64,000 bases of DNA from assembly GCF_902167145.1 (NCBI RefSeq), contig NC_050104.1, positions 14,840,001-14,904,000 on the forward strand, read 5' to 3'. Made by a program: the position numbers and the translations under genes. The notes beneath the pieces were generated by a model. That model searched no databases. It saw only the letters and a list, made by a program, of their open reading frames with translations, and was not told the origin of the DNA. Every line of letters starts with the position of its first letter. Position 1 is the stretch's first letter. This stretch comes from Zea mays. Lineage: Eukaryota; Streptophyta; Magnoliopsida; Poales; Poaceae. Positions 8,479 to 59,208 of the stretch are shown piece by piece.

Positions 8479-8536
8479 GAACTCACTTCCACTCTTTGAG
8501 TTTTTTGAACACCTTCGGCGATCATAAACCTTCGCT

Positions 8537-14411: not shown

Positions 14412-14419
14412 TATTTATA
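14412..14419 (-). promoter_or_regulatory. TATA box for the antisense gene of the zeon-like element
   Basis: The minus strand reads TATAAATA, about 145 bases upstream of the ATG at 14269. The spacing matches that of the first element (about 160 bases), so an internal antisense promoter appears in both. Confidence 0.6.
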
Positions 14420-14575
14420 CGCCCAGTGCGTTGAAAATTGAAAGACCCCGCTTGTCAGTGAATGTTGCTATTCTAGCAAAGGGAAGGTGTTTTTTCGGAC
14501 CTTCGGCGTAAAGCCTTCGTCCATGTCGCAATCTAAATTTATTATTTTAAACAAATTAATATTGCGAGGGGCTAC

Positions 14576-15227: not shown

Positions 15228-15232
15228 GATCA

Positions 15233-16109: not shown

Positions 16110-16195
16110 ATTTCCCTAGTTAATACTTTTCACATGAGCATAAAGATCATATATACATACAAAAAAATGATTGTGGGACAATTCTACAAGTTTGG
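16110..16195. other. Short AT-rich junction sequence
   Basis: This stretch lies between the Ji-type LTR start and a second, truncated LTR. It holds no open frame or repeat that I recognise. Confidence 0.4.
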
Positions 16196-19516: not shown

Positions 19517-19796
19517 TGTTGGCGTCGATCCGGGCGTCATACCGGTGGTGGTGCTCTATGCGGAAGCGCGGACAGAATTATCGATGTAAATGCTACATAG
19601 TGGGTTCTCATCCTTCAGAGACTACGCCAAATTCAAAACTCATGCTTGGTGTACAGATCGAACCATTCGTGACCTGGCGTAGATACTAGGGTTTTTGCCT
19701 GATGAGTCGGACGGTCTACGCCTAGTGGCCGGACGGTCCACGCCTAGTGGCCGGACGGTCCGCACGTGCGTAGTGGTGACGGAGTTCGCCGACGAC
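19517..19796 (-). repeat. 3' LTR of the old Ty3 element, distal part (rest at 26141-26576)
   Basis: Together the two parts make an LTR of about 711 bp that starts TGTTGAGCACC at 26576 (minus strand) and ends ..GACGCCAACA at 19517. It is split by the Sirevirus insertion with TSD acgac. Three direct copies of ggccggacggtcc-type words occur at 19705-19765. Confidence 0.7.
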
Positions 19797-21197: not shown

Positions 21198-21199
21198 AT

Positions 21200-21211
21200 T
21201 GGTATCAGAGC
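21200..21211 (+). other. Primer-binding site, initiator-Met tRNA
   Basis: TGGTATCAGAGC, two bases after the LTR, is the standard complement to plant initiator methionine tRNA. Confidence 0.9.
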
Positions 21212-21278
21212 CTGGTTTGGCTCATTTGAAATGCTTTAGCTTCACCGCTAAAAGAGCCAACGCTTTTTAGAGGAAAGG

Positions 21279-26140: not shown

Positions 26141-26576
26141 ACGACGTTTGGATCTCGCTCCCAGGAGGGACCCTATCGGGGAGAAGAGATCATAGGGTTT
26201 GTCTTGGGATCGGTAGGCCACCCAAGACGCCTCTAAACGACGTAGAGCCGGAGAGGGATGAAGATTAGAGAGAGGAATCTAAGTTACTATCTACTCTTAG
26301 GGCAAAAGGTAAAAACAGAAGATAATTTGATTGTTCATTCGATTGTTGGTTCTTTAATCGGTCGCACCCCTTCAAATATATAAGGGGTAGGTCTAAACCC
26401 ATTCCTAGGCGTTCTCCAACAACTCCCGTGGGATTAAGGGCTAAACGCGTGAGGAGATAGAAGTTTTATCCGCCTCATTCGATCTATTTGCAGATCGTTC
26501 GTCCCTACGAACGAACCATATGGTCCTTAGAGCCGGATCGTCCGGTCGTGCCTAGTTCCACAAATGGTGCTCAACA

Positions 26577-27142
26577 CATACCCCCTGCCTTTTGGATAAG
26601 CTGAGCGAACCAAAAGCACCGACACAGGCTGGAACTAACTCGATGTGATCACATCAGTTCTCTTAAGAATCTTCCCACATACTAGGATGGTATTGCTTTA
26701 AGAAATGCCCGTTTAGTGCCTTGGGCAAGTCTTCGCCTTGTAATGTTTGCAACAAGTATACATTACCAGATATTTCCTGTGTGATTTTGTAAGGGTCTTC
26801 CTAGCTTGACGACCACTTTCCAAACTTCCGGTCTCTGCTCCTTATTGGTAAGATGGTCTTCCATATCAGGTCTCCTACTTGGAATGAGTTAACCTTGATT
26901 TTCTTGTTGTAAGCTTTGACGACCATGATCTTGTCCTTCTCTATTTCTCCTAGAGCTATCACTCTCTTATTGGTCACTTCATCAATATTGTCCATCATTT
27001 AATTATAATAATCACCAACAGTTATTTCATTTTGCCTATCGAACCTGACATCATTTAAGCTTACCTCTATAAACAACACTGCTTCCTATCCATAAACAAG
27101 CTCAAATGGAGATACTTTAGCAGCATGATGTTTAGATATTCT
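26577..27142 (-). pseudogene. Integrase C-terminal remnant and polypurine tract of the old Ty3 element
   Basis: The minus strand between 26998 and 26801 is open for 65 codons and reads like the C-terminal part of a Tat-type integrase (a 'FQVGDLIWK' motif followed by a basic stretch). The G-rich tract gcagggggtatg (26577-26590, minus strand) just before the LTR is the polypurine tract. Frames on either side are interrupted. Confidence 0.6.
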
Positions 27143-28467
27143 TGAAAGGGAAATGGCCTTAACCATTTTCTATCATCGATTTTGGTGCTTGACGACCATC
27201 ACAAATCTTATGGACTAACTAGTTTGCCTAGTTGATCATTTCTCAGGTGCATAAGTTCATCTACATCAATTCTAAGTCGACTGTCCGGAATACCGTAGAT
27301 TATTCTGGACAAGAGAAGATTTTTTGGAAATTCACCTGTGCATGGACCGTCCGGGCCCTTCCAGCGGACCATCTGCGACACCAGGGTGAACCTCGGACAG
27401 GAACTATAAATCACGCGTTTACACTGCGGACTGTCCTAAGCAGAAGAGAGCACCGTCCGGGACGAAGCTCGGACCGTCCAGCCTCAGACGCGGATCGTCC
27501 ATCCGTTGAAAAACTAGAAAAACCCAAAGGTGACGGGTTCGGTAAAATGCATTTTTAGCGTCCTCACAGACCGTCCAGGGTGCACGACCGGACCATCGGC
27601 GATTGCTTTATCTAATATATGACGACACATTTAATGCACTGTAGTTGATATAGTCGTTACTGCTGACCATTTCAGTCGTTGATGTGCAGGGGCGGACCGT
27701 TCGGACCAGGGGCGCGGACTGTCCGCGATTGGTAGAATAAGGGCAACAGCTAGGAAGTGGTTGGTGGATATAAATACAACCCCAACCATCTCCATTCAAA
27801 ATATCCAAGCATCCTACACACACATTCAATACAAGAGCAAGCAATCCATTCTAAGACACATTTAAAACTTCCAAACCTCTCCAAGTGCCACAATTGAGAC
27901 AAGTGATCATTAGTGATTAGTAACTTGATAGAGTGTGATTCGTGTTTCATTTGTTGCTCTTGTTGCTTGGTTTTTAATCGTGCTTTCTTCATCTCCTTCT
28001 AAACTCTCTAGTGACTTGTAAAGTTAGCAAGAGACACCTAAGTGTGTGGTGGTCCTCGCGGGGTCTTAGTGATCTTTGAGATTAAGAAGAAGCACTCAAT
28101 CAATCTAAGTGATCATTTGAGAGAGGTAAAGGGTTGAAAAAGACCTGGTCTTTGTGGCCTCCTCGACGGGGAGTAGGTTCATTAGAACTGAACCCCGGGA
28201 AACAAATTGTCGTGTTCATTTGTGTTGATCATTACCTTATGATTTGATTCTTCCTCTCCCCTCTCTCTAAGCTCTCTTGCTCATCACAATCTTTTGAGTT
28301 AGTTTCCAAAGTCATGTGCATTGTTTGAGCAACTCATAACAAGAACAACTCTCTTCCGCACTCTGATTTTGTTATCATTTATTTGCAATCCTAACCCTGT
28401 GTGAAGTTCGTGTTCAAAGTTGATAATATTTAGGTTTCACCTATTCACCCCCTCTAGGCAACTTTCA
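27143..28467 (+). repeat. Solo LTR, Ji-type Sirevirus (1325 bp)
   Basis: It starts TGAAAGGGAAATGGCC and ends GGCAACTTTCA. The flanks are attct (27138-27142) and attgt (28468-28472), a target duplication with one mismatch. A TATA box is at about 27769. It lacks any internal sequence, so it is a solo LTR left by LTR-LTR recombination. Confidence 0.82.
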
Positions 28468-28472
28468 ATTGT

Positions 28473-30142
28473 ATGAGCTCATAAAGCTTCAGACAAGACC
28501 TTATGCCAATGCTTAAGATGATCATATATCTTCTTTTTTACCAGGTTAATCGATGTCCTATTGCTAGACCCAGCCTGCCCATTGGCCTCAGCATAATATG
28601 GAGAAGAATTGAGCAATTTAATTCTGTATGATTCAGCAAACTCACGTACCTCCTTTGACATAAAAGAAGTCCCTTGGTCTGTGGTCAAAATATGAGGAAT
28701 GTCGAATCTATGAATAATATGTTCAGTTAGAAACTCAATTACCTCTTTATGTGTCATGTTCTTCATAGCAACGACTTTGAGTACATTTGGTAAAGTAGTC
28801 TGTGGCGACAAACACGAACTGATGCCCTTTTGATGATGAAGGATGTATCTCTCCTATAAAGTTCAATCCCCATCCCTTGAAAGGCCAAGGTTTGATGATA
28901 GGATGTAATTCAGATGCAAGGAACAATTGTAAGTCACTGAATTTTTTGAGACACTTGGCATACTTTGTAGTACTTGAAACAATCACCTATCATGTTAGGC
29001 CAATAAAAGCCAGATCTTCACAATAACCACTTCATCTTCGGAGTCGATTGATGAGTACCACAAATCCGCTCATGTACTTCGGTCATGGCTAATATAGCAT
29101 CATTTGACCCCAAGCATTTAATTAGGACATCGTTGATAGTTCGGCGGTAGAATTCATCATCCATTAAAACATACTTGAAAATTGTACGCCAAACGTTCCT
29201 GTCCGTCCTAACACTAGGATTTCATAGATAGGTAATCATAGGTGTCCTCCAATCAATTGCATCGGCTGCTTTATCAGCCGAATCGATCAGGAGAAACTTT
29301 TTGGCGATGTCAGACGATATGGGACCCATACCCGGACAGTCTTAATCTATTGCGGACAGTCCATGACCTAGGGGTCTGGCGCGACACCAGTTATCAGATT
29401 TTCGTTATTGTGAAATTTCCCTCACTTTATCCGATAACCTGATGCGTCTTGTGCCAAATTGTTAGCTCTGCAATTCTCAACCCTGCATATGCGCCGAATG
29501 TTGAATTCGTCAAAAGAATGGATTATGTCCCAGCATTTTTCAAGGTAACTATTTAGAGTGCCATCTAAACATTGATACTCTTCTAATATCTGCTAGACAA
29601 CCAGCTGAGAATCACCAAATGCCCTCACATGATTTACTCCCATACAATTTAGAAGTTCTAGACCGAACAAGAGGGCCTCATATTCGGCTTGATTATTAGT
29701 GCAATAAGTTTTTAATCGCCTAGAGAAGTCGAAGGAAGCATTACTTGGCAAAACAAGCACGATGTTAATTCCTTGTCCTTCGTTGAATCGATCCATCAAA
29801 ATACAGAGTACCGTGAGTAACAATGAGATATGACATACCTAGTCTATGAGTATCATCTTGTTCTATAATAAAATTTTCTACGACCTAGTCTTTCATAGAT
29901 TTTAATGGTTCATAGACCAAGTCATAATCTATGAGTGCATAAGACTATTTACCAATTCTAGCACTCATGATTGGGTTTTGCAACATGTATTTGATCATAT
30001 CGGTTTGACCAGAAATGGTGTAATTAGTAGACAATAAATAACAACTACACATGGTGCATGCATAAAACAGGCATAAGCATAACTTCTCAATGAAGGTGTA
30101 CCTTGTTTCAGCGTCCACCAACCTTCGACTTAGGTAGGTTAC
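28473..30142 (-). pseudogene. Integrase core and RNase H remnant of the old Ty3 element
   Basis: On the minus strand, from 30142 down, come an RT/RNase H connection segment (30142-29945), an RNase H segment (29823-29593) and the integrase core in two frames (28986-28747 and 28811-28479, so a frameshift lies near 28780). The integrase triad is damaged: the first Asp site reads Asn (GLNFIG), the second Asp is kept (TDQGTSF), and the Glu site reads Gly (NGQAGSS). It is clearly dead. The frame runs into the 30143 insertion. Confidence 0.75.
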
Positions 30143-31470
30143 TGTCACACCCGGTTTTAGAAGGCAAACCGAATGCGAACCATGTACGTGCCAGGATCAG
30201 TTATTCACGTACACAGCAGTTACATAATATGGACATCATCACACAGTGCTCAAAATAGTATTAATAAGGGAAATAGTCGATTACATCATACGTCTGAGAC
30301 GTCCATATAGTCCTTACAGTAAATCAAAGTGCGGAAAAGAAACGTAGATAACTGCGGCCTTCACAGGCAGCCGACTGGGGGTTGCCGCTAACCCACACCT
30401 AGAACTCGTCGTAATCTTGGAACTCCTGGAAGTCTCCTTCCACAGCTTCATCTTCGCCTGAGCAGTGGTTGCAATGCTCACAACCTGGGGATGGGGGGGG
30501 TTTGGTGTGTAGAGCAAGGGTGAGTACACATCAACATACTCAGCAAGTATCCTGTTTGGCTGTAGTGGACTAGCTTTATGTGGGGATAAGTCAAGCAGTT
30601 GCTTTTAGTTGGTCAGATTATTACTTACTAGTAGAAAGCCAAGTTTTAGCATTAACCCAGGTTATTAACCCAAACGTACTCCTTTCCAAACGGAAAGAGT
30701 ACCACTTACCAGCACCATAGACATAACCAGAACCATCAATCTCATGACCACCTGTACCAAAGTATCTCTGATCAAGTACCACTAATCACTGGAGCTCCCT
30801 TGGCCGCTCATAACCGCGAGCACGGCTGATATATCAGTTTTCAAACACTCTGCAGAGGTTGTGCACTTTACCCACAAGCCGTGATTCCCATTCTGCCCGG
30901 AGATCATGACTCTTCATTGATCACTACCAAGGTGACCCAGCAGGGCATCACTACGTAGCCTTTACAAAGATTCCCCGGGGCTGTAGCCACCCGTTAGGTT
31001 TCCTAAATGCACCACACTCCTCCCCAAGGGGCGAACCCAAACTTGGCAGAGCGAGCCGCATACACCGAGCCCCATTGACGGCACGACGGCTAAGTGAACT
31101 ACACCCCGGATCCTCTAATTATTCAGCTAAGGGCATCCCATTCCACCCTCATGGTTGCACTGTTTTCCCGGGCGGTCATCCATAGAACAGGTCCTTACGG
31201 AGAGGCACTCGAGAAACCGCTCGAGCCCCCTTGATGACCACAAGTACAACATCATAATAAGAGAAGGGAAAAACAGTGTATCATAGATATTCTCATCATG
31301 TTCATTGATTAGAGTTAAGCAATAGCATAAAGCTAAACAGTAATAATCCAACCCAGATAGGTAAACAAGGACATGGATAACAAAAGCTAGTCAATCCTTA
31401 GGCATAAATGTGTAAAGCGGGAGGTGAATTAAAGAATGAATAGGACAGAGATAGGTCAAGGGACACTTGC
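30143..31470 (-). repeat. Partial LTR of the chromovirus, U3 start missing
   Basis: It matches 35480-36807 of the complete LTR at a constant offset of 5337 with few substitutions. The first ~650 bp of the LTR (U3 side) are absent and the sequence joins RT directly at about 31470. Confidence 0.88.
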
Positions 31471-33802
31471 TCAACTTTGCATACAACTGGTGCTCTCGCA
31501 ATCTTTGCAATACCATCCTCAAATGATCTGCGTGCTCTTCTTCGCTTTGAGAATAAACCAGAATGTCATCAATGAATACCACCACAAACTTATCAAGGTA
31601 ATCCATGAATACACTATTCATCAAGTTCATGAAGAACGCTGGCGCATTGGTCAAACCAAAAGACATCACTGTGAACTCATACAAACCATACTTGGAAATG
31701 AATGCCGTCTTCGGAATGTCCGAAGGTCGGATCCTGAGCTGGTGATAACCTGACCTCAGATCAATCTTGGAGAACACACTGGCTCCTCTCAACTGGTCGA
31801 ACAGATCTTCGATTCTGGGCAAGGGATACTTGTTCTTGATCGTGACTTCATTCAAAGCTCGGTAATCGATACACATCCTCTTGGTGCCATCTTTCTTTTC
31901 CACAAACAAGACAGGGGCGGCCCAAGGCGAGGTGCTTGGTCGGATGTAACCTTTCTCTGACAGCTCATCAATCTGCTCCTTAAGCTCAACCAACTCTGGT
32001 CCAGATATTCTGTAAGCTCTCTTGAAGATAGGGGCGGTTCCAGGAAGAAGCTCTATGGCAAACTCAACTTTCCGCTCTGGTGGCATACCCGGTAAGTCCT
32101 TTGGAAACACATCTGGGAACTCGGACACAACCTTGATACTCTCGATCGGGTCTGCTTCACTGCTATCAACAGCCATCTGATAACAACTTCCTTTCTTTGG
32201 CTCAGGTGGGACTAACTCAATCACCACTTCCTCTCCTAGTGGGGACACCAACTTGATTGTCCTTTTATCACAACTGATAACTGCCTGATACTTATCTAGC
32301 CAATTCATCCCTAGGATGACATCTATTCCCTGAGTACCCATTACTATAAGGTTGGCGGGAAACGCTATCCCCCTTATTTTCACACTTATATTCAAACAAA
32401 TGCTATCGGCTCGAATTCTACCACCGGCTGAGTCAATTTGAATGGGGGTTGACATGGTAGTAATTGGAAGATTATGTGCTTCTACCCATGATGCAGTAAT
32501 GAAAGAATGCGTTGCTCCAGTATCAAATAACACTTCTGCAATATGGGAGTCGACTGGGAACATACCTACTATCATGTCGGGGGTCTCCTGAACTGCTTCA
32601 GCCTCCAAGTGGTTCAGCCTTCCATGATTATAGCGCGGCTGAGGGCGATTGCCTGCTCCAGGCTGAGGCACATTCTGCTTTGCTGGGGCACTGGGGCCTG
32701 ACTGCTGCTGGGCTGCCTTCTTCGGACATTGCATCACCCAGTGGCCTTGCTCCCCACAGTGGAAACATGCCCTGTTTCCAACCTGAGCTGGTGCTGCCTG
32801 ACTGTTCTGCTGGTTTGCTGGGGCAGGAAGACGAGGTGCCTGCTGATTCTGCCTTTGAAACTGACCTCCTGACTGATTGCTCTGACGGTTCTGATACTGA
32901 TGTTGAGGATACTGCCTTTGGAACTGCTGATGCTGCTGAGGTGGACGCTGGTTCTGCCTGAACTGCTAAGGTTGATTGCCTGAGAAACGAGGACGATTGC
33001 TGCTTCCAGGCTGGGGTCCACTGATCTTGCGCTTACGATCTTCCATCTCCTTCCGCTTTCTCTCTGTCATGATTGCTCTGTCAATCAGGTGCTGGAATGT
33101 CGGGAAGGTGTGATTCATCAGTTGGTACTGCAGAGGGTCAACCAAGCCTCTCAGGAAACGGTACTGCCGCTTGGCGTCAGTGTTGACATCTTCAGGAGCA
33201 TAACGAGACAGCTGCAGAAATCTGTCCCGGTATTCACTGACAGACGATGACCCTTGTTTGAGAGCTAGGAACTCCTCCTTCTTCACTGTCATCAGACCTG
33301 CAGGAACATGGTACTGACGAAAGCTACCTCTGAACTCTTCCCAGGTGATGGCGTCAGGGTGGGCATGGGTGGCAAGGTAAGACTCCCACCATGACTGGGC
33401 TGCTCCTCTCAACAGACGGGGACCATACAGGACTTTCTCCCTGTCATCGCACTGAGCGGTATGCAACTCCCGCTCCACAGTGCGCAGCCAGTCTTCAGCA
33501 TCCATGGGGTCAGAAGAATGAGCGAACGTTGGTGGATGACCTCTCATGAATTCAGCACGCTTGTCTCTGGGCATCTGAGGCATCTGAGGTTGAAGTGGGG
33601 CCTGCTGCTGTTGCTGCTGCTGCTGCTGAATGGCGGCCAAAGTCTGACCGATGGCTTGAACTGCCTGAGTCTGCATCAGAAACATCTGCTCGATGGACAT
33701 CGGGGGCGGGGGCGGCAGGTGCTGCTGCTGGGGCACCTCATCCTGTTGAGCGGCTCGCTCCTGCTGAGCACGCCTTCCTCCTCTGCGTCTGTTCTCTGAC
33801 AT
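31471..33802 (-). pseudogene. gag-pol: Chromovirus Gag-protease-RT, cut inside RT
   Basis: One frame runs from ATG 33802 to the junction, with a single TAG at 32968-32966. The order is a Gln-rich region, capsid domain (about 33560-33080), a Gln/Asn-rich spacer, a zinc knuckle C-x2-C-x4-H-x4-C at about 32775-32735, protease with the active-site DTGA near 32530, and RT with [11 protein letters not shown], the FGLTNAP motif and the catalytic FIDDIL motif near 31560. The frame leaves RT within the thumb-side motif YAKLSK and continues into LTR sequence, ending at 31391. RT's C-terminus, RNase H and integrase are missing in this part, although separate copies exist in the two arms. Confidence 0.85.
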
Positions 33803-34205
33803 CTGCAGAATGCAACCACACATCAGAACTGATCTGGCAAATCTTGCAGCATAAGGAAAGAGAATAGAATTCTTCAACAGCACTGAACAGATGAGCATCT
33901 TCACGGATCTCCAACACAGACCACACAGCTTCTCAGATAAAGAGGAAAGTGGAATAAAAGGTTTCCCAACTATATAACTAACTCCATTAACATAATAGGT
34001 AGACCAAAATGCAGGGGATACCCACACTCTGGTGACAGTCATTACAAAGATTCAAACCAAACATAGTTCATCATGACAAACATAGATGCACAGGATATAG
34101 CAAACTACCCTGTCTAACTAAGACTAACTAAGACCGAGACTAACGCTAAGACTGAAGCTTCTATGTATATATTTCGTATTAATTACAAGATCTAACTCTG
34201 ACGAT

Positions 34206-35219
34206 CTATGGTTCTAGAGTTATCTTGGTCTTGCAGTCGGGATTGCCATAAGACTGGTGTCCACGCTGAGGTGAGCGGTATGGGTGCTGAGTCCCGACGG
34301 GAGCGGGGGAACCACCATCCAGGTGACGACGTTCCGCGCGCTCAGCCCGCAGCAGGGCGATCTCAGCACGAGCCCTACTCAGCTCATCTAATGCATGGTC
34401 CAGCTCCGTGTTTAGCACGGCAGCTAGGTTGACTGTGCTGCTCAACCTAGGATTGCCCTCACCGACGGGTGAGACAATCACGCCTCCTGTGCTGCCAGAT
34501 GGACAGCGGGGGTAATACTTCAGGTCAAGACCATCAGCTGCCCCACCGAAAACCGAGCAGTAGTGCGAAAGCGCACGCCGTGCAGCATCTTGCATGGCTG
34601 CCTCAGCTGAGTCCCGTTCAGAGATAGAATAGTGCTCTGAGCAGGCCTCCGCACCCTGGAGACTGTTCTTCGGGCAGCGCACCAAGCAAGTCGCCTCCCA
34701 GCGGTCCGGGTAGACCCCGCGACTATGCTGGTAGACCACACAGCGATACTCGACGGACCAAGTATGCCGGTCAAATGCCCGACGTAGCAGGGTGTCGAGC
34801 GCATCGTGGAAGTGACACCCACGAGCAGCGTCGCGAGTGATGGGTCGAGCAACCCATCCTTCCGGCTCAAGGTTAGCAGAGAAGTCGGTGTCGTGGCTCG
34901 AGCTGTCGTCGCCACCTCCGTCGTCTGGGTCTCCTCCAGCAGCTACTCCAGAAGCTGGGGCGCCCAGTGGTGATGCAGGGGGCGCCTCCAGAGGAAGCAC
35001 AGGGGAGCAGCTCCTCACAGACTCTATCTCCTGTTGGAGCGAGAAAGAAGAGCCCTGCTGCTCCTGTCGTCGACGTTCCTGCTCCTCACGCAGGCGGTGG
35101 TGTAGTCTCTCCAAGTGGCTGGACTGTCCGGCCACGGGACGGCGAAGCGGACGCTCAGCAAGGCGGGAGGGTAAGAAGGGGATGACTGACTTTCGTGCAG
35201 TGTGTCTAAGTCGAGCCAT
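34206..35219 (-). CDS. Extra ORF upstream of gag (ORF0) with a histone H3-like N-terminus
   Basis: The 337-residue frame begins between the primer-binding site and gag and is intact. It starts MARLRHTARKS, which lines up with the start of histone H3 at A1, R2, T6, A7, R8, K9 and S10. After a Gln/Glu-rich coiled segment and an acidic region (GGGDDSS..) comes a folded part (about 130-235) with Trp/Tyr/Cys residues. This part ends in a helix rich in Ala and Arg (AEAAMQDAARRAL) that recalls, weakly, the last helix of a double-stranded-RNA-binding fold. A short coiled coil lies near the end. No established function is known to me. It may be spliced to gag. Confidence 0.55.
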   Translation of the reverse strand: MARLRHTARKSVIPFLPSRLAERPLRRPVAGQSSHLERLHHRLREEQERRRQEQQGSSFSLQQEIESVRSCSPVLPLEAPPASPLGAPASGVAAGGDPDDGGGDDSSSHDTDFSANLEPEGWVARPITRDAARGCHFHDALDTLLRRAFDRHTWSVEYRCVVYQHSRGVYPDRWEATCLVRCPKNSLQGAEACSEHYSISERDSAEAAMQDAARRALSHYCSVFGGAADGLDLKYYPRCPSGSTGGVIVSPVGEGNPRLSSTVNLAAVLNTELDHALDELSRARAEIALLRAERAERRHLDGGSPAPVGTQHPYRSPQRGHQSYGNPDCKTKITLEP

Positions 35220-35459
35220 CTACAAAAGACATCGCAAGCAAAAGGGTGAGAACAAAATTAATATGACCAGCAAATAATGAATCATAAGTAAATGAAGGAT
35301 TAGAATAAAACATGATTTTCAGCAAGGTATTGAATATAGTAGAACATAGGTTTGGTCGGTATGACCAACTTTTGAAGGGATATCAAAGTCAAGGCAGAGA
35401 CAGAGGTCTATAGTCCTTAGAACGACCATTCTACTCTAGGTTAGCGGTCCTACAGTCAG

Positions 35460-35479
35460 CACGGCTTTGATACCACTTA
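35460..35479 (-). other. Primer-binding site of the chromovirus
   Basis: On the minus strand TAAGTGGTATCAAAGCC follows the LTR end directly. TGGTATCAAAGC differs by one base from the initiator-Met complement. Confidence 0.85.
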
Positions 35480-37458
35480 TGTCACACCCGGTTTTAGAAG
35501 GCAAACCGAATGCGAACCATGTACGTGCCAGGATCAGTTATTCACGTACACAGCAGTTACATAATATGGACATCATCACACAGTGCTCAAAATAGTATTA
35601 ATAAGGGAAATAGTTGATTACATCATACGTCTGAGACGTCCATATAGTCCTTACAGTAAATCAAAGTGCGGAAAAGAAACGTAGATAACCGCGGCCTTCA
35701 CAGGCAGCCGACTTGGGGTTGCCGCTAACCCACACCTAGAACTCGTCGTAATCTTGGAACTCCTGGAAGTCTCCTTCCACAGCTTCATCTTCGCCTGAGC
35801 AGTGGTTGCAATGCTGACAACCTGGGGATGGGGGGGGTTTGGTGTGTAGAGCAAGGGTGAGTACACATCAACATACCAAGCAAGTATCCTGTTTGGCTGT
35901 AGTGGACTAGCTTTATGTGGGGATAGGTCAAGCAGTTGCTTTTAGTTGGTCAGATTATTACTTACTAGTAGAAAGCCAAGTTTTAGCATTAACCCAGGTT
36001 ATTAACCCAAACGTACTCCTTTCCAAACGGAAAGAGTACCACTTACCAGCACCATAGACATAACCAGAACCATCAATCTCATGACCACCTGTACCAAAGT
36101 ATCTCTGATCAAGTACCACTAATCACTGGAGCTCCCTTGGCCGCTCATAACCGCGAGCACGGCTGATATATCAGTTTTCAAACACTCTGCAGAGGTTGTG
36201 CACTTTACCCACAAGCCGTGATTCCCATTCTGCCCGGAGATCATGACTCTCCATTGATCACTACCAAGGTGACCCAGCAGGGCATCACTACGTAGCCTTT
36301 ACAAAGATTCCCCGGGGCTGTAGCCACCCGTTAGGTTTCCTAAATGCACTGCACTCCTCCCCAAGGGGCGAACCCAAACTTGGCAGAGCGAGCCGCATAC
36401 ACCGAGCCCCATTGACGGCACGACGGCTAAGTGAACTACACCCCGGATCCTCTAATTATTAAGCTAAGGGCATCCCATTCCACCCTCATGGTTGCACTGT
36501 TTTCCCGGGCGGTCATCCATAGAACAGGTCCTTACGGAGAGGCACTCGAGAAACCGCTCGAGCCCCCTTGATGACCACAAGTACAACATCATAATAAGAG
36601 AAGGGAAAAACAGCGTATCATAGATATTCTCATCATGTTCATTGATTAGAGTTAAGCAATAGCATAAAGCTAAACAGTAATAATCCAACCCAGATAGGTA
36701 AACAAGGACATGGATAACAAAAGCTAGTCAATCCTTAGGCATAAACGTGTAAAGCGGGAGGTGAATTAAAGAATGAATAGGACAGAGATAGGTCAAGGGA
36801 CACTTGCCTCCACCAACCGACTGCTGCTCAGGGGCTTCTCCTGCGAGTTCCTCGGGCTCTTCGACCGGATCGTTCTCGGAGGGGGGCGGCGCGGCGGCGG
36901 CGCCGGGGAGGGGAGAGGCGGCGGCGGCGCTAGGGTTAGGGTTGGGGTGAGAGAGAGAGAGAGATGACGGGCGGGGCCCGCGGGGGGGGATTTTTGGGAA
37001 AAAAGAAAAGGGTGGGGGCGGCTGGGCCGGATGGGCCCAAAGTGGGGGAAGGGGGGCGCGCGGCTGGGCCGGCCGGGGGGCCCACGCGGGAGGGGAGGGG
37101 GGAGGCGCGGCTGGGCCGCCAGCTGGGCCGGCGCGCAAGGGGGGGCGGCTGGGCCGAAATGGGAAAGGGAGGGAGGGAGAGAAAAAGAAAGAGTTTTCTT
37201 TTTCTAAAATCTAATTTTCTCAGGGTGAATGCTTTTACATTTTAAACAACCAAAAGTATGCATGGTTCGGCATGGTGCATCACACGAAATAAAGTGTTTT
37301 AAGGTTTTGCTTTACATGAGGTCTAAAGCCAAAACCCGCTGCGACTTTGGAAAAGATCAAGGCTTAGCGAGAAGAAAAGGGAAAAGGAAAGAGTAACGCC
37401 TGAATTTGGTGAGAGAAAAGAAGAAAAAAAAATCTACCCCCAAATTCAGGGCGTTACA
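35480..37458 (-). repeat. Complete LTR of the chromovirus, left arm (1979 bp)
   Basis: Minus strand start TGTAACGCCCTGAATTTGG at 37458, end CCGGGTGTGACA at 35480. It contains a GC-rich, C/G-homopolymer-rich segment with a (CT)n run (36900-37190). In the arrangement it sits inside the composite, followed by the primer-binding site, so it acts as the 5' LTR of the gag-bearing half and the 3' LTR of the left pol half. Confidence 0.9.
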
Positions 37459-37480
37459 AACCTATCCCCCTTAAAAGAAT
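37459..37480 (-). other. Polypurine tract, left arm
   Basis: The minus strand reads ttcttttaagggggataggt directly before the LTR start. The right arm has the same tract with one change (aagaggga). Confidence 0.7.
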
Positions 37481-37494
37481 CTCGCCCTCGAGAT

Positions 37495-39323
37495 TCAGGG
37501 TTGGCTAGCAAAGAGCTCAGGGTATTTAGCCATCAGATCATCTTCACGCTCCCAGGTTGCTTCTTCCTCAGAGTGATGATTCCATTTGACCTTGCACATT
37601 CTGATGGTCTTCCTTCGGGTGACTCTGTCTGCAATCTCAAGGATTTGCACTGGCTTCTCAACGTAGGTCAAGTCCTCCTGGACTTCAAGACCTTCCACTG
37701 GCAACTGCTCTTCTGGCACACGCAAGCACTTCTTCAACTGAGACACATGAAAGACATCATGCATAGCTGACAAATTCTCTGGCAAACTGAGCTGATAGGC
37801 CACTTCTCCACGTCTTGCAAGAATCTGATACGGACCAATGTAGCGGGGTGCTAGCTTGCCTTTCACTCCGAATCTTCTGACTCCTCTGATCGGTGACACT
37901 TTCAGATAGACAAAGTCTCCGACTTTGAAACTCAGCTCTCTTCTTCTTGTATCTGCATAGCTTCGCTGCCTCGATTGCGCTATCTTCAGATTCTCTCGGA
38001 CCATCTTGATGTTCTCTTCAGCTTCAAGCAAAATGTCTGGTCCAAACACTTGCTTTTCTCCAGGCTGATCCCATTGCAACGGAGTTCTGCAACTCCTTCC
38101 ATAGAGCGCCTGAAATGGTGACATCTTCAAACTGGCCTGGTAACTGTTGTTATAGGAAAACTCTGCATAAGGCAATCTCTTGTCCCATCCGGACTGATCT
38201 TGCAACGCACAGGCTCTCAACATATCTTCAAGAATTTGATTGGTCCTTTCGGTCTGGCCATCTATCTGCGGATGATAAGCTGAACTGAAATTCAGATGCG
38301 TGCCCAAAGCTTCATGCAACTGCTGCCAGAAGTGAGAGGTGAACTGCGTTCCTCTGTCTGACACTATCTTCTTTGGCACACCATGAAGACAAACGATCCG
38401 AGACATATACAATTCTGCCAATACTGCACTGCTATAGTTGGTCTTGACAGGTATGAAGTGGGCTAACTTGGTCAAGCGGTCCACTACTACCCAAATGGAA
38501 TCGTAGCCGGCTCGAGTGCGAGGCAATCCGACTATGAAATCCATACCGATTTCATCCCATTTCCACTGAGGGATCTGCAACGGTTGCAACAATTCAGCAG
38601 GTCTCTGGTGCTCTGTCTTAATTCTTCGGCAACTATCGCACATAGCCACATGCTCTGCGATTTCTCTCTTCATTCCGTACCACCAGAATTTCTTCTTCAG
38701 ATCCTGATACATCTTCTCACTGCCAGGGTGAATCGAATAGGCTGTCTCATGAGCTTCTTTAAGGATCAATTCCCGAATGGATCGGACATTGGGAACACAC
38801 AAGCGGGCTTTGAACCATATCACGCTTTCTGCATCTTCTCGAAAATCTTTGCCTCTGCCATCTAGGATCAGTCGCCGAATCTCACTGATTTTCTCATCAT
38901 TCTTCTGCGCTTCTTTGATTTCGCGCTCTAAGGTAGGTTCCAACTCAACTGTGACTTCTCGCGAATTGTTCAGAAATCCGAGACTCAACTTGTCAAACTC
39001 CTTGGCCAACTCATAAGGCATCGGTCGAGCGACCATTAGATTGACTTGACTCTTTCTACTCAAAGCGTCTGCCACTACGTTTGGTTTGCCTGGATGGTAA
39101 TGAATCTCCAACTCATAATCTTTGATCAACTCTAACCATCTTCGTTGCCTCATGTTCAACTCTGACTGAGTGAATATGTACTTCAGACTCTTGTGGTCTG
39201 TGTAAACATCACATTTCTGTCCATACAGGTAGTGCCTCCATGTCTTCAGTGCGTGAACCACTGCTGCCAACTCTAGATCATGGATTGGGTAGTTCTTCTC
39301 ATGAACCTTCAACTGTCGGGAAG
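37495..39323 (-). CDS. pol: Chromovirus RNase H end-integrase-chromodomain, left arm
   Basis: The frame is open from the palindrome centre to the stop at 37495 (about 609 residues of pol). Domains in order are the RNase H tail ([12 protein letters not shown].., about 1-60), the H2C2 zinc-binding segment (about 215-260), the integrase core with D in MDFIVG, D in SDRGTQF and E in GQTERTNQ, the GPY motif (RYIGPY) near 505 and a C-terminal chromodomain with the aromatic/acidic pattern [16 protein letters not shown]. Integrase inserts cDNA, and the chromodomain is believed to guide it to marked chromatin. The residue before the Glu region reads QID where the other arm has QTD. There is no start codon of its own because the fragment begins mid-pol. 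Confidence 0.85.
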
Positions 39324-39331
39324 AGTTGTGG

Positions 39332-41160
39332 CTTCCCGACAGTTGAAGGTTCATGAGAAGAACTACCCAATCCATGATCTAGAGTTGGCAGCAGTGGTTC
39401 ACGCACTGAAGACATGGAGGCACTACCTGTATGGACAGAAATGTGATGTTTACACGGACCACAAGAGTCTGAAGTACATATTCACTCAGTCAGAGTTGAA
39501 CATGAGGCAACGAAGATGGTTAGAGTTGATCAAAGATTATGAGTTGGAGATTCATTACCATCCAGGCAAAGCAAACGTAGTGGCAGACGCTTTGAGCAGA
39601 AAGAGTCAAGTCAATCTAATGGTCGCTCGACCGATGCCTTATGAGTTGGCCAAGGAGTTTGACAAGTTGAGTCTCGGATTTCTGAACAATTCGCGAGGAG
39701 TCACAGTTGAGTTGGAACCTACCTTAGAGCGCGAAATCAAAGAAGCGCAGAAGAATGATGAGAAAATCAGTGAGATTCGGCGACTGATCCTAGATGGCAG
39801 AGGCAAAGATTTTCGAGAAGATGCAGAAAGCGTGATATGGTTCAAAGACCGCTTGTGTGTTCCCAATGTCCGATCCATTCGGGAATTGATCCTTAAAGAA
39901 GCTCATGAGACAGCCTATTCGATTCACCCTGGCAGTGAGAAGATGTATCAGGATCTGAAGAAGAAATTCTGGTGGTACGGAATGAAGAGAGAAATCGCAG
40001 AGCATGTGGCTATGTGCGATAGTTGCCGAAGAATTAAGGCAGAGCACCAGAGACCTGCTGAATTGTTGCAACCGTTGCAGATCCCTCAGTGGAAATGGGA
40101 TGAAATCGGTATGGATTTCATAGTCGGATTGCCTCGCACTCGAGCCGGCTACGATTCCATTTGGGTAGTAGTGGACCGCTTGACCAAGTTAGCCCACTTC
40201 ATACCTGTCAAGACCAACTATAGCAGTGCAGTATTGGCAGAATTGTATATGTCTCGGATTGTTTGTCTTCATGGTGTGCCAAAGAAGATAGTGTCAGACA
40301 GAGGAACGCAGTTCACCTCTCACTTCTGGCAGCAGTTGCATGAAGCTTTGGGCACGCATCTGAATTTCAGTTCAGCTTATCATCCGCAGACAGATGGCCA
40401 GACCGAAAGGACCAATCAAATTCTTGAAGATATGTTGAGAGCCTGTGCGTTGCAAGATCAGTCCGGATGGGACAAGAGATTGCCTTATGCAGAGTTTTCC
40501 TATAACAACAGTTACCAGGCCAGTTTGAAGATGTCACCATTTCAGGCGCTCTATGGAAGGAGTTGCAGAACTCCGTTGCAATGGGATCAGCCTGGAGAAA
40601 AGCAAGTGTTTGGACCAGACATTTTGCTTGAAGCTGAAGAGAACATCAAGATGGTCCGAGAGAATCTGAAGATAGCGCAATCGAGGCAACGAAGCTATGC
40701 AGACACAAGAAGAAGAGAGCTGAGTTTCGAAGTCGGAGACTTTGTCTATCTGAAAGTGTCACCGATCAGAGGAGTCAGAAGATTCGGAGTGAAAGGCAAG
40801 CTAGCACCCCGCTACATTGGTCTGTATCAGATTCTTGCAAGACGTGGAGAAGTGGCCTATCAGCTAAGTTTGCCAGAGAATTTGTCAGCTGTGCATGATG
40901 TCTTTCATGTGTCTCAGTTGAAGAAGTGCTTGCGTGTGCCAGAAGAGCAGTTGCCAGTGGAAGGTCTTGAAGTCCAGGAGGACTTGACCTACGTTGAGAA
41001 GCCAGTGCAAATCCTTGAGATTGCAGACAGAGTCACCCGAAGGAAGACCATCAGAATGTGCAAGGTCAAATGGAATCATCACTCTGAGGAAGAAGCAACC
41101 TGGGAGCGTGAAGATGATCTGATGGCTAAATACCCTGAGCTCTTTGCTAGCCAACCCTGA
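39332..41160 (+). CDS. pol: Chromovirus RNase H end-integrase-chromodomain, right arm
   Basis: This is the mirror-image copy of the left arm, also uninterrupted to its stop at 41160. Differences seen include K-to-E before VGDF, P-to-L in the GPY motif (RYIGLY), and M-to-V, E-to-G and T-to-A changes elsewhere. The GPY change suggests that this copy is less likely to be functional. It too starts in the middle of RNase H at the centre of the palindrome, so it lacks protease and RT. Confidence 0.85.
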
Positions 41161-41176
41161 ATCTCGAGGGCGAGAT

Positions 41177-41196
41177 TCTTTTAAGAGGGATAGGTT
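41177..41196 (+). other. Polypurine tract, right arm
   Basis: ttcttttaagagggataggt ends one base before the LTR start at 41197. It follows the integrase stop by 16 bases. Confidence 0.7.
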
Positions 41197-43203
41197 TGTA
41201 ACGCCCTGAATTTGGGGGTAGATTTTTTTTCTTCTTTTCTCTCACCAAATTCAGGCGTTACTCTTTCCTTTTCCCTTTTCTTCTCGCTAAGCCTTGATCT
41301 TTTCCAAAGTCGCAGCGGGTTTTGGCTTTAGACCTCGTGTAAAGCAAAACCTTAAAACACTTTATTTCGTGTGATGCACCATGCCGAACCATGCATACTT
41401 TTGGTTGTTTAAAATGTAAAAGCATTCACCCCGAGAAAATTAGATTTTAGAAAAAGAAAACTCTTTCTTTTTCTCTCCCTCCCTCCCTTTCCCATTTCGG
41501 CCCAGCCGCCCCCCCCCCCCTTGCGCGCCGGCCCAGCTGGCGGCCCAGCCGCGCCTCCTCCCTCCCCTCCCGCGTGGGCCCCCCGGCCGGCCCAGCCGCG
41601 CGCCCCCCCCTTCCCCCACTTTGGGCCCATCCGGCCCAGCCGCCCCCCCCCCCCACCCTTTTCTTTTTTCCCAAAAATCCCCCCCCCCCCCCCCCCCGCG
41701 GGCCCCGCCCGTCATCTCTCTCTCTCTCTCTCACCCCAACCCTAACCCTAGCGCCGCCGCCGCCTCTCCCCTCCCCGGCGCCGCCGCCGCGCCGCCCCCC
41801 TCCGAGAACGATCCGGTCGAAGAGCCCGAGGAACTCGCAGGAGAAGCCCCTGAGCAGCAGTCGGTTGGTGGAGGCAAGTGTCCCTTGACCTATCTCTGTC
41901 CTATTCATTCTTTAATTCACCTCCCGCTTTACACATTTATGCCTAAGGATTGACTAGCTTTTGTTATCATGTCCTTGTTTACCTATCTGGGTTGGATTAT
42001 TACTGTTTAGCTTTATGCTATTGCTTAACTCTAATCAATGAACATGATGAGAATATCTATGATACGCTGTTTTTCCCTTCTCTTATTATGATGTTGTACT
42101 TGTGGTCATCAAGGGGGCTCGAGCGGTTTCTCGAGTGCCTCTCCGTAAGGACCTGTTCTATGGATGACCGCCCGGGAAAACAGTGCAACCATGAGGGTGG
42201 AATGGGATGCCCTTAGCTGAATAATTAGAGGATCTGGGGTGTAGTTCACTTAGCCGTCGTGCCGTCAATGGGGCTCGGTGTATGCGGCTCGCTCTGCCAA
42301 GTTTGGGTTCGCCCCTTGGGGAGGAGTGCGGTGCATTTAGGAAACCTAACGGGTGGCTACAGCCCCGGGGAATCTTTGTAAAGGCTACGTAGTGATGCCC
42401 TGCTGGGTCACCTTGGTAGTGATCAATGGAGAGTCATGATCTCCGGGCAGAATGGGAATCACGGCTTGTGGGTAAAGTGCACAACCTCTGCAGAGTGTTT
42501 GAAAACTGATATATCAGCCGTGCTCGCGGTTATGAGCGGCCAAGGGAGCTCCAGTGATTAGTGGTACTTGATCAGAGATACTTTGGTACAGGTGGTCATG
42601 AGATTGATGGTTCTGGTTATGTCTATGGTGCTGGTAAGTGGTACTCTTTCCGTTTGGAAAGGAGTACGTTTGGGTTAATAACCTGGGTTAATGCTAAAAC
42701 TTGGCTTTCTACTAGTAAGTAATAATCTGACCAACTAAAAGCAACTGCTTGACCTATCCCCACATAAAGCTAGTCCACTACAGCCAAACAGGATACTTGC
42801 TGAGTATGTTGATGTGTACTCACCCTTGCTCTACACACCAAACCCCCCCCCCCATCCTCAGGTTGTCAGCATTGCAACCACTGCTCAGGCGAAGATGAAG
42901 CTGTGGAAGGAGACTTCCAGGAGTTCCAAGATTACGACGAGTTCTAGGTGTGGGTTAGCGGCAACCCCCAGTCGGCTGCCTGTGAAGGCCGCGGTTATCT
43001 ACGTTTCTTTTCCGCACTTTGATTTACTGTAAGGACTATATGGACGTCTCAGACGTATGATGTAATCGACTATTTCCCTTATTAATACTATTTTGAGCAC
43101 TGTGTGATGATGTCCATATTATGTAACTGCTGTGTACGTGAATAACTGATCCTGGCACGTACATGGTTCGCATTCGGTTTGCCTTCTAAAACCGGGTGTG
43201 ACA
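41197..43203 (+). repeat. Complete LTR of the chromovirus, right arm (2007 bp)
   Basis: Starts TGTAACGCCCTGAATTTGG, ends CCGGGTGTGACA, then gttac. It has longer poly-C runs than the left LTR (for example 41512-41521 and 41679-41697). It is not followed by a primer-binding site but by the host element, as expected for a 3' LTR at an insertion end. Confidence 0.93.
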
Positions 43204-43208
43204 GTTAC

Positions 43209-44123
43209 CACATGTTCCTTTCCTTCGATCTCTTGTGTCAGAACATCTCCAATAACTTTATTTACGGCTCCAATATATATCTTGTGTCAGAACATCTCCA
43301 ATAACTTGCTTGTAGTGCTTTTAATACGGGAGCCGCAAACAAATATTTTCTAATAAGATCAAATGCTTCCTGTTGTTCTGCCCCCACGTGAATTCGACAT
43401 CATTTTAAGCCGAAGGATAGGAGTGAAGGCATCAATCTTCCTGGCTAAGTTAGAAATAAACCTTCGGAAATAATTTACCTTGCCGAGAAACTTCTACATC
43501 TCAAGCTTATAGGTTGGAGCTCCCACATTTCGAACTGACTTAATTCGGTTGGGATCTATCTCTATACCATGTTCATGAATGATAAATCCTAATAACTTAC
43601 AACCCGACAGTTCAAAAGCACATTTACGCGGGTTCATTTTTAGACCATACAAACGCAATTTATCAAAGACTTTACGTAAATCAGCGATATGAGAACCAAA
43701 CTCAACCGATTTGACTACAATATCATCGATGTAAACTTCCACAGTGTTTTTCAACAGCTCATGAAGGATTAATTTCATAGCCTTCTAATAAGTAGCACCA
43801 ACATTTTTAGACCAAATGTCATGATAACGCACTCAAATAAACTAATGAAGCCTGGATATATAAAGGTCTTTTTAGACGTATCATCTTCAGCCATAAAGAT
43901 CTAATTATATCCAGTATTACCATCAAGAAAGCTAATAATTCTATTTCCCGATGCATTATAAATCAACATGTCGGCTATAGGCATAGGATATTCGTCCTTA
44001 GGAGCTGTTCTATTTAAATTCTAGAAATCAATGCACACTCTAATCTTACCTGATTCTTTCTTCTCCAATGTCTAATAAAATTAGCTTCTAAAAGTCGATG
44101 GATCTCGTCCTTTATCCATTGGA
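43209..44123 (-). pseudogene. Reverse-transcriptase remnant of the old Ty3 element
   Basis: The minus strand is open at 43778-43494 and contains the catalytic YIDDIVVKS motif followed by LRKVFDKLRLYGLKMNP, typical of Tat-type RT. Flanking parts are recognisable but in other frames with stops. It continues across the chromovirus insertion to 30142. Confidence 0.78.
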
Positions 44124-44128
44124 GTAAG

Positions 44129-45354
44129 TGAAAGGGAAATGTGCCCTTGGACCATTTCTAAGTATTTTGGTGATTAAGTGTCCAACACAAATGGTTATGT
44201 GTTAAACTATGCCAAATGGTGGACAAAGTGCAAATCAATACAAAGGTATGATTCTAGACTTAGTACATTGGTTTTTGTGTACTAACATATTTGTCTAAGT
44301 GCTAGAATCAGAGAAAAGACAAATGGAAAAGACTTGGCTCGAGCAGCCAAGACTCTGCTCAGTCTGGGTGCACCGGATTGTCCGGTGCGCCAGGCTGGCT
44401 CTGATGAAAAGGGCGCTCTCGGGAATTGAACGGCGGCGTACGTCTATAAATCACCGGACTGTCCGGTGGTGCACCGGACTGTCCGGTGAGCCAACGGTCG
44501 GCCGCGCAATCGGGCGTGACGCGTGGCCGGGCCAACGGTCTGAAGGGGGCACCGGACTGTCCGGTGTGCTGTGTGCACCGTACAGTGTCCGGTGCGCCAA
44601 CGGCTCCAAATCGCCAACGGTCGACTGCGCCAAAACAGGAAAGAAATCTGCACCGAACAGTGTCTGGTGGTGCACCGGACTGTCCGGTGCACCAATCGAC
44701 AGAAGGCAAGATTTGCCTTCCTGGATTGCTCTCAACGGCTCCTAGCTGCCTTGGGGCTATAAAAGAGACCCCTAGGCGCATGAAGGAGAACACCCAGCAT
44801 ACCTTGAGCATTCTTGATCATTCACACCTCGCCTTTGCGCACTCGTTTGACGTTCTAAGTGATTTGAGCTCCGTTCTAGTGAGAACTTTGAGATATTCAT
44901 TTGAGCTCAAGTCTTGGCCGTGTGTGTGTGCGTATTGCTGTGAACTTGTGTGTGTTGCTCATCCCATCCTTACTTCTGTGTTCATTTGTGATCATCTTTT
45001 GTAAGGGCGAGAGACTCCAAGTTGTGGAGATTCCTCGCAAACGGGATATAGTGAAAGGAATAGAAACATCGTGGTATTCAAGTGGGTCTTTGGACCACTT
45101 GAAAGGGGTTGAGTGCAACCCTCGTCCGTTGGGACGCCACAACGTGGAGTAAGCAAGTGTTGGACTTGGCCGAACCACGGGATAAACCATTGTGCCTCTC
45201 TGTGTTGATCTTTTTGTGGTTATTGTGTTTCGCAAGAACTCCTCTCTAGCCACTTGGCTTTATTGCTCTAACACCTAATCAAGTTTGTGGCTTTAAGTTT
45301 CAAGTTTTTACAGGATCACCTATTCACCCCCCCCCCCCCCTCTAGGTGCTCTCA
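44129..45354 (+). repeat. Solo LTR, Opie/Ji-type Sirevirus (1226 bp)
   Basis: Starts TGAAAGGGAAATGTGCCC, ends CTAGGTGCTCTCA, flanked by a perfect duplication gtaag (44124-44128, 45355-45359). U3 carries CGG..CCG palindromes (44367-44695) and TATAAAAG at 44758-44765. No internal part remains. Confidence 0.92.
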
Positions 45355-45359
45355 GTAAG

Positions 45360-45497
45360 TCTAGACGAAATGATCTTGGTCTCTGATTGAAAGGCCTGAA
45401 ACCAGATTTAATAGGCAGTCAATGTTCTACTATCTCTCGACTTAATCCTGACATCTCAGTGTAATAGGACGACGAATACGAGGAGAAAAAGAAACGG
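45360..45497 (-). pseudogene. N-terminal RT fragment of the old Ty3 element, cut by a junction
   Basis: The minus strand encodes a segment with MSGLSREIVEH and LPIKSGFRPF, the conserved entry of Tat-type RT, with one stop. It ends near 45497, where a Copia gag begins in the opposite orientation without a visible LTR end or target duplication. Confidence 0.6.
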
Positions 45498-45499
45498 TT

Positions 45500-46509
45500 A
45501 ACTCGAACTTTTCTTTTGATTATTCTCGTATTCCGCATAATTCAAATGCTCATTTGCTTTCCATTCCACTTGGTAAACCCCCACACTTCGATGGAGAGGA
45601 CTACGGATTTTGGAGTCACAAAATGCGTAGCCACTTGTTTTCTCTTCATCCAAGTATATGGGAGATAGTAGAAAATGGGATGCAATTTGATAGTTCTGAT
45701 AACTCCATGTTTATCAATGAACAAATCCATAAAAATGCACAAACTACTAATGTTCTTTTAGCATCCTTGTGTAGGGAAGAGTACAATAAGGTGAGCGGCT
45801 TGGACAACGCCAAGCAGATCTGGGACACCCTCAAGATCTCGCATGAGGGGAATGACGTCACCATGCTCACCAAGATGGAGTTGGTGGAAGGCGAACTAGG
45901 AAGGTTCGCAATGATCAGGGGAGAGGAGCCAACTCAAACGTACAATAGGCTCAAGACCCTGGTCAACAAGATAAGAAGCTATGGAAGCACGAGATGGACA
46001 GACCACGACGTCGTCCGACTCATGCTAAGGTCCTTCACTGTCCTTGATCCTCATCTTGTAAACTCTATTCTTGAGAATCCTAGGTACATCAAGATGACGC
46101 CCGAGGAAATACTCGGAAAGTTTGTAAGCGGGCGAATGATGATCAAGGAGGCGAGGTACGTTGATGAGGTGTTGAATGGCCCAATCTACGAGCCTCAAAC
46201 CGTTGCTCTCAAAGCAACAAGTAGCAGGGAGATGCTACCTAGCAAGGTGGCGCAAGTTGAGGCGGCCGGGCTAAATGAAGATGAAATGGCCCTCATCATC
46301 AAGCGCTTCAAGACAGCGCTCAAAGGTCGCAAGGAGCACCCCAACAAGAGCAAGACGAAGGGGAAGCGCTCCTGCTTCAAGTGTGGTAAGATTGGTCACT
46401 TTATTGCTAACTGTCCCGATAATGATAGTGACCAGGAACAAGGGAAGAGTGGAAAGTGGGAAAAGAAGAAGACCTACAAAAAGGCGAAGGGCGAGGCACA
46501 CCTTGGAAA
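45500..46509 (+). pseudogene. gag: Opie/Ji-like Copia Gag, N-terminal part
   Basis: The frame carries the Sirevirus gag from just after its start (KPPHFDGEDYGFW..) through the zinc knuckle CFKCGKIGHFIANC (46372-46413) to the CACTA insertion. The 5' LTR, primer-binding site and initiator are missing, so the fragment was truncated at about 45500. It continues at 53910 after the CACTA element. The fragment is otherwise free of stops. Confidence 0.85.
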
Positions 46510-59206: not shown

Positions 59207-59208
59207 CT

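Follow-up and report, generated by a model that had tools for sequence, protein, structure and literature searches.

A 13-kb chromovirus-type insertion in maize that ends in U5 on both sides and may derive from a self-primed minus-strand cDNA

In the reverse transcription of retroviruses minus-strand DNA (e.g. strong-stop DNA) can be self-primed, i.e. the 3' end of the cDNA folds back and primes synthesis on itself. Here we describe an insertion of a Ty3/gypsy chromovirus-type retrotransposon with long terminal repeats (LTRs) in maize whose structure suggests that a molecule of this kind has entered the genome. The insertion occupies 13,061 bp (30143-43203) of a 64,000-nucleotide stretch of Zea mays DNA (NC_050104.1, positions 14,840,001 to 14,904,000 of the forward strand), which is referred to as the window throughout, and the analysis covers this single locus in one assembly.

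Among the closest described systems are the three-LTR complexes of grass genomes reported by Sabot and Schulman in 2007 (PMC1950507). As described there, the complexes have a shared third LTR, two complete cores, ordinary ends and one target duplication, and they were ascribed to template switching; two were found in about 7 Mb of Triticeae sequence and one each in rice and maize. LTRs that are inverted by design are described for DIRS-1, an element with a tyrosine recombinase instead of an integrase (PMC5633606), and the Rev-A integrase is described as joining two U5-type ends in vitro with 5-bp duplications (PMC3790719). Among the matches listed from the open-licence literature, no title or abstract opening named a palindromic or U5/U5 LTR retrotransposon insertion, which is not proof of absence from print. 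The phrase that matched in PMC2151762 concerns primer design and names no palindromic or U5/U5 insertion.

The insertion is flanked by GTTAC on both sides, and joining the flanks amounts to an empty-site test inside the window itself. With one copy of GTTAC the joined flanks form one continuous RNase H frame across the site, and with both copies kept there is a frameshift exactly there. The joined-flank peptide of 82 residues matches Pfam RT_RNaseH over residues 2-79 (7.9e-14); the left-flank piece by itself gives 4.9e-08, and the 21-residue right-flank piece has no Pfam match by itself. The restored frame implies that both ends of the insertion come from one integration. A matching 5-mer alone would have a chance of 1/1024. 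The interrupted host, which lies on the minus strand, is an older Ty3-type element with stops and frame changes of its own. Assuming a correct assembly, we consider it very likely that a linear molecule of 13,061 bp with a U5 terminus at each end was integrated in one event. This agrees with the earlier note on this DNA, which had pointed to the GTTAC flanks and to one event. A recombination complex of two neighbours, in which there is no shared target duplication, is considered unlikely in view of GTTAC on both sides and of the in-frame empty site.

The type of each terminus can be read from the insertion itself. The complete middle LTR (copy B) defines the U5 end: it ends at 35480 and is followed by TAAG and a sequence resembling a primer binding site (PBS). 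Copies A and C turn this PBS-side end outward, at 30143 and 43203 respectively. An ordinary insertion has one U3 and one U5 end facing outward; here U5 faces outward on both sides. The outer LTRs are inverted relative to each other (30137-31470 vs 43209-41874) and are 99.0% identical over 1,337 columns, while the middle LTR is direct to the left one (98.9% over 1,332 columns). An identity of this order over 1.3 kb excludes that the twin U5 termini are a mix-up of similar LTR tips. The earlier note had also claimed that both outer termini are the same LTR end and that integrase accepted two U5 ends; the inverted alignment bears out the former, and U5 on both sides over more than 1.3 kb, together with the single 5-bp duplication, supports the latter.

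As in chromoviruses, there are LTRs with TG...CA ends, a 5-bp duplication, a PBS beside U5 and a polypurine tract (PPT) beside U3. The LTR termini that lie inside the insertion also have normal neighbours, i.e. the PBS at 35480 and the PPT at 37458 and 41197. Read from the outside inwards, the LTR tips are TGTAACGCCC for U3 and TGTCACACCC for U5, with 8 of the 10 bases alike, and this likeness may explain why integrase took a U5/U5 pair.

The right part of the insertion (35480-43203) is a palindrome with 98.4% identity including gaps. Each arm is about 3.85 kb long, and outside the centre 27 substitutions (in about 3,840 nt) and 8 indels distinguish the two. The "3.85-kb palindrome" of the earlier note is thus correct as an arm length and not as a total, the whole palindrome measuring 7.7 kb. 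The longest ungapped pair (37425-39323 and 39332-41230) comprises 1,899 nt per arm at 99% identity with 8 nt between, and both arms end at one point within this spacer. The RNase H-integrase open reading frames (ORFs) of the two arms are both still open. Pfam matches to rve and Integrase_H2C2 are present in both arms, and the left arm matches RT_RNaseH, Integrase_H2C2, rve, SH3_Tf2-1 and, weakly, Chromo. The match to the chromodomain profile (PF00385) reaches E 5e-05 in the arms with 23.5 and 23.6 bits, which is below the curated cut-off of 25.1.

The turning point lies within RNase H: the arms enter the RT_RNaseH profile at positions 37 and 36 of 105. In the protein comparison, relatives that cover the palindrome centre have two extra residues there, i.e. 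about six bases are missing from the centre of the insertion. The right-arm coding sequence before this gap and the left-arm coding sequence after it would be inverted repeats of each other over 5-6 nt, and in the parent the repeat may have measured 8 nt. Part of this overlap is a necessary product of the fold. DNA relatives that could provide the uninterrupted centre or parent copies were sought in viral contigs, where 2 pattern matches included 0 confirmed relatives and a degenerate pattern gave 0 matches.

In the left part, the order LTR-PBS-ORF0-gag-protease-RT-partial LTR (RT, reverse transcriptase) that had been proposed earlier is found again by ORFs, sequence and Pfam. Two refinements can be added: the left LTR is without its first ~650 nt (1,328 nt vs 1,979 nt in copy B), and an in-frame stop lies after gag, between gag and the protease-RT frame. 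The PBS presumably matches the initiator tRNA-Met. ORF0 matches no Pfam family at E 0.001. Where RT meets the left LTR, the 8-nt stretch GCAAGTGT fits both the RT side and the LTR side; relatives read SKC(E/D)FW at this place. A join of this kind is typical either of a template jump or of illegitimate recombination, and either may have produced this one.

Six blocks (Table 1) account for every base of the insertion (sum 13,061 bp) and stand in the predicted order. Read on the minus strand from 43203 to 30143, these are an inverted LTR; an inverted PPT, chromodomain-type tail, integrase and RNase H that reach the palindrome centre; the same region in sense orientation from RNase H to the PPT (39327 to 37459); a complete LTR; PBS-ORF0-gag-protease-RT (31471-35479); and the 5'-truncated LTR. 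Only two joins look abnormal, namely the palindrome centre and the RT/LTR deletion. Both have a short sequence overlap, and since neither lies at an LTR end, they were not made by integrase. There is no complete core in the insertion: the palindrome contains RNase H-integrase twice and the left part contains ORF0 to RT.

Table 1. Coordinates of the insertion, its blocks and its flanks in the window
Feature	Position	Strand	Basis
Left flank (extent examined): older Ty3-type host element, from distal RNase H onwards	29500..30142	-	frame joining, Pfam
Left target-site duplication GTTAC	30138..30142	+	sequence; frame restored with one copy
LTR copy A, 5'-truncated, last 1,328 nt, U5 outward	30143..31470	-	98.9-99.0% to other LTR copies
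8-nt microhomology GCAAGTGT at the RT (...LSKC)/LTR join	31463..31470	-	A vs B/C alignment ends here; junction sequence
Zinc knuckle, aspartic protease and RT (cut off near the C-terminus)	31471..32965	-	Pfam RVP_2 6.5e-38, RVT_1 6e-33, zf-CCHC 3.1e-04
gag ORF, closed by an in-frame stop	32966..34051	-	ORF; Pfam Retrotrans_gag 3.9e-19
ORF0, 337 amino acids, gag sense, between PBS and gag	34206..35219	-	ORF call
PBS, 4 nt past the LTR end	35463..35475	-	sequence
LTR copy B, complete, 1,979 nt, common to palindrome and gag-RT segment	35480..37458	-	alignment, length
Left arm, internal part: PPT, chromodomain-type tail, integrase, C-terminal RNase H	37459..39327	-	ORF 37495-39378; Pfam
Palindrome centre, 8-nt spacer within RNase H	39324..39331	.	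self-alignment, sequence
Right arm, internal part: RNase H to PPT	39328..41196	+	ORF 39277-41160; Pfam
LTR copy C, complete, 2,007 nt with longer C-runs, U5 outward	41197..43203	+	alignment, length
Right target-site duplication GTTAC	43204..43208	+	sequence
Right flank (extent examined): older Ty3-type host element, RT plus proximal RNase H	43204..44000	-	frame joining, Pfam RVT_1 1.1e-09

The divergence between the copies was used to ask how they are related in time. Over the 1,328 nt of LTR that copies A, B and C all retain, there are 15 substitutions, and all 15 are private to one copy (A 6, B 7, C 2), which indicates that the three LTR copies were alike on entry. With a grass substitution rate of 1.3e-8, the divergence of the arms and of the LTRs gives ages of 0.27 and 0.29 Myr respectively. 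This is as expected if all three LTR copies entered together about 0.3 Myr ago.

We suggest that the integrated molecule was a U5/U5 duplex that had been made from a self-primed minus-strand cDNA, and we would put the probability of this snap-back route at roughly two in three; most of it is reconstructed from the end product. The canonical steps of retroviral-type reverse transcription are established knowledge. In the proposed route, a first minus-strand cDNA (tRNA-U5-R-U3-PPT-integrase-RNase H) would have stalled in RNase H, and its 3' end would have folded on a short inverted repeat of at least 5-6 nt and primed the plus strand in place of the PPT primer. The snap-back plus strand would then copy RNase H-integrase-PPT-U3-R-U5 and part of the tRNA, and would in this way gain a PBS copy like that of plus-strand strong-stop DNA. 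The PBS copy could pair with the 3' end of a second minus-strand cDNA, which would be the ordinary second strand transfer made intermolecularly, and extension would proceed through ORF0-gag-protease-RT up to the U5 end of this second cDNA. The second cDNA may already have been without the part from the end of RT to the middle of the LTR, through a jump at GCAAGTGT, or this part may have been lost later. Its own 3' end would be extended by the usual displacement synthesis and would open the hairpin, so that a full linear duplex would result, whose far end is the U5 end of the first cDNA. Finally, integrase would join both U5 ends 5 bp apart; with U3 and U5 tips so much alike, it may hardly discriminate between them.

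In this scheme, the only departure from canonical reverse transcription is the priming step, besides the deletion and the use of a second molecule for the transfer. A snap-back plus strand that copies into the tRNA carries a PBS and can therefore make a normal second transfer; if this takes place onto another minus strand, the junction consists of a complete LTR, PBS and leader, as seen here. The middle LTR is indeed complete and runs straight into the PBS, as the transfer step requires. The earlier note had assumed a second molecule joined within the LTR. Two cDNA molecules (or one used twice) are supported, whereas the join within the LTR is unnecessary, because the complete middle LTR running into the PBS corresponds to a normal plus-strand transfer after snap-back priming. 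It had also stated that the cDNA folded back in RNase H and copied itself: the turn-round in RNase H stands, and self-copying is one way to read the arms, which also fit the copying of a near-identical sister cDNA. What the sequence shows is the product, its ends and its single integration; the order of events, the use of the cDNA itself and not of a sister as template, and the moment at which the RT/LTR deletion took place belong to the proposed route.

Several observations weigh against the snap-back route as proposed. The about six missing bases at the centre would call for a copying slip or for a later central deletion, as judged from the proteins of relatives, which are the source for the uninterrupted centre. 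Hairpins as good as the one at the turning point are not rare: in 1,844 nt of the arm, with loops of 6-14 nt and overlapping stems counted, stems reach 5 bp or more at 19 places, 6 or more at 4, 7 or more at 2 and 8 or more at 1, so the sequence allows a snap-back at this site without singling it out. A palindrome with 3.85-kb arms is also expected to be unstable. The derived changes are uneven between the arms, with 11 on the left and 3 on the right (p = 0.057; LTR 7:2 plus protein 4:1, 3 ambiguous). For this count the protein changes were polarised strictly against 11 relatives picked from the best 120 of 7,977, the four protein differences at the centre were left out because they were made by the fold, and outside the LTR the polarised differences are the non-synonymous ones. 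Finally, five C-runs have changed in length, and in every case the run is longer in the right arm (from copy B to copy C: 7 to 12, 6 to 8, 5 to 12, 8 to 19 and 8 to 11). The one C-run of at least 6 that is retained in the left copy A has a length of 8 and agrees with the middle copy B. At the least, the skew and the C-run lengthening are unexplained by pure self-copying followed by even decay, and either could reflect separate templates. A left-arm excess as the trace of an extra copying round was considered and is not claimed: a first hand count had given 13-14 : 3 (p = 0.013-0.021), and strict polarisation reduced this to the above 11:3.

Separate templates are the essence of another explanation, in which a pair of separate, truncated cDNAs from one family became connected head to head, either through microhomology end joining or when synthesis jumped from one cDNA to a sister cDNA, and the composite with its intermolecular palindrome was then integrated via two U5 ends. 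The short overlap at the centre, the 11:3 distribution of derived changes and the one-sided C-run lengths would suit such an origin, and the gag-RT segment already needs two molecules. We nevertheless regard it as unlikely. The arm ends lie within about 14 nt of one point, which has a chance of about 0.5-0.8% by a crude estimate for two independent, uniformly distributed ends, whereas a common end point is automatic under fold-back; moreover, the LTR copies share no variants that would mark distinct sources. Autointegration, i.e. the insertion of one cDNA end into another cDNA of the same particle by integrase, is a known maker of inverted and deleted retroviral forms. One of the abnormal joins would then have to be an LTR terminus, which is true neither of the join at 31470/31471 nor of that at 39327, and the LTR termini inside the insertion border on their normal neighbours, so we give autointegration hardly any credence.

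It is also conceivable that the palindrome arose after integration or outside the plant. An ordinary element could have been inserted and later turned palindromic, whether through fold-back repair, an inversion or gene conversion. In favour of this, the target duplication is normal, illegitimate recombination is frequent in plant elements, and the RT/LTR deletion alone could be such an event. An internal change is, however, not expected to turn the U3 terminus beside a target duplication into U5 with base-exact precision. Fold-back repair should in addition duplicate flanking sequence, and there is no inverted flank copy in 28000-46000 beyond the quasi-palindromic GTTAC itself. A later rearrangement is therefore very improbable. 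We think slightly less still of an artefact in which the assembly took up a self-complementary long read with a missed adapter. Palindromes that are large and nearly perfect are known to occur as artefacts, and the C-run length differences between the arms are odd. Such a read should, however, repeat the flank and have identical arms; here 27 substitutions separate the arms, and the right arm gives way, precisely where the LTR ends, to a new flank with the correct duplication and the correct continuing reading frame.

The insertion can be set beside the known systems. With the template-switching complexes (PMC1950507) it shares three LTRs in one insertion, an internal third LTR with a single flanking 5-bp duplication, formation before integration by abnormal reverse transcription, and outermost LTRs that are similar (A vs C 99.0%), although here they are inverted and A is truncated. 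Two complete cores are not found. Part of the insertion is a palindrome, and each outer end is U5. Of the cores, one would have been lost to the fold and the second has undergone deletion, and the proposed step is snap-back priming, whereas in the described complexes it is an R-to-R jump between RNAs. Because it has no two complete cores and has a palindrome and two U5 ends in addition, we regard it as a variant with shared logic and not as a member of this group.

Retroviral self-priming is known as a side product near the start of synthesis, whereas here the turn-round lies deep in pol and the product has been integrated. The in vitro work on purified retroviral integrases, as described in PMC3790719, concerns oligonucleotide ends in a test tube, and here we deal with a natural genomic insertion; two U5 ends and a duplication of fixed length are common to both, and the Rev-A result indicates that U5/U5 chemistry is feasible. 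Like DIRS-1 as described in PMC5633606, the element is surrounded by inverted LTRs; unlike it, it has an rve integrase, a 5-bp duplication and an ordinary Ty3-type middle LTR with PBS. A DIRS-type organisation was rejected, since rve and Integrase_H2C2 are present in both arms and no tyrosine recombinase is among the Pfam hits of the five ORFs scanned.

In terms of family, the pol order of protease, RT, RNase H and integrase is found by Pfam (31391-32965 and both arms). The order of RT and RNase H is read across the middle LTR, as the stretch from RT to the middle of RNase H is absent from the insertion, and would follow from relatives that hold both in one protein. Among the best 120 of 7,977 relatives of the integrase segment, most of those with an organism name come from Paspalum notatum; Oryza, Digitaria and Aegilops rank lower, and a few Asteraceae have about 50% identity. 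Among the matches listed, the best named one comes from Paspalum notatum (79% across the full query), and the closest unnamed one is a metagenome protein (93% over 71% of the query). Grass chromovirus-type Ty3/gypsy elements, here compared as protein records, have the same RT-RNase H-integrase order and the same SH3-type tail as the insertion.

The other elements of the window provide a yardstick: of the three other LTR pairs, the two that were tested have ordinary direct LTRs with duplications, GATCA and ACGAC, when ends were sought within 6 nt. The former belongs to an ordinary LTR element at 7809-15227 (652-bp LTRs, 99.2% identity), and the latter to an LTR pair at 19794-26141 (1.4 kb, 96%) with a short internal region and, by eye, a gag-like ORF. 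The third is an LTR-like direct repeat at 55271-64000 (about 1.76 kb, 98.9%) whose second copy reaches the window end. There are also inverted copies of about 0.9 kb at 15231-16110 and 27142-28051 (80%), with related pieces near 5328-5840 and 16633-17348. In the interrupted older element, a 28-nt RNase H stretch is present twice near the right junction (43231-43258 and 43280-43307).

Self-primed minus-strand cDNA is normally an inferred or in vitro species, and at this locus one appears to be preserved whole in a genome. The insertion is also a natural example of a retrotransposon integrase that seems to have worked on two U5 ends and left a correct 5-bp duplication. Genome scans could test how frequent self-priming is in plants and how well Ty3-type integrases discriminate U3 from U5, and a near-perfect chromosomal palindrome of 7.7 kb is of relevance to palindrome stability and to hairpin-RNA silencing. 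A more general idea, which we put forward as doubtful, is that snap-back priming can replace the PPT primer and that palindromic U5/U5 cDNAs are a regular minor product of Ty3-type particles. If this were true, U5/U5 insertions would recur in plant genomes as a class, misread by annotation tools seeking direct-repeat LTRs. Inverted Mu killer supplies hairpin RNA against MuDR; an insertion of the present kind, if transcribed from outside, would likewise give a long hairpin RNA against its own family.

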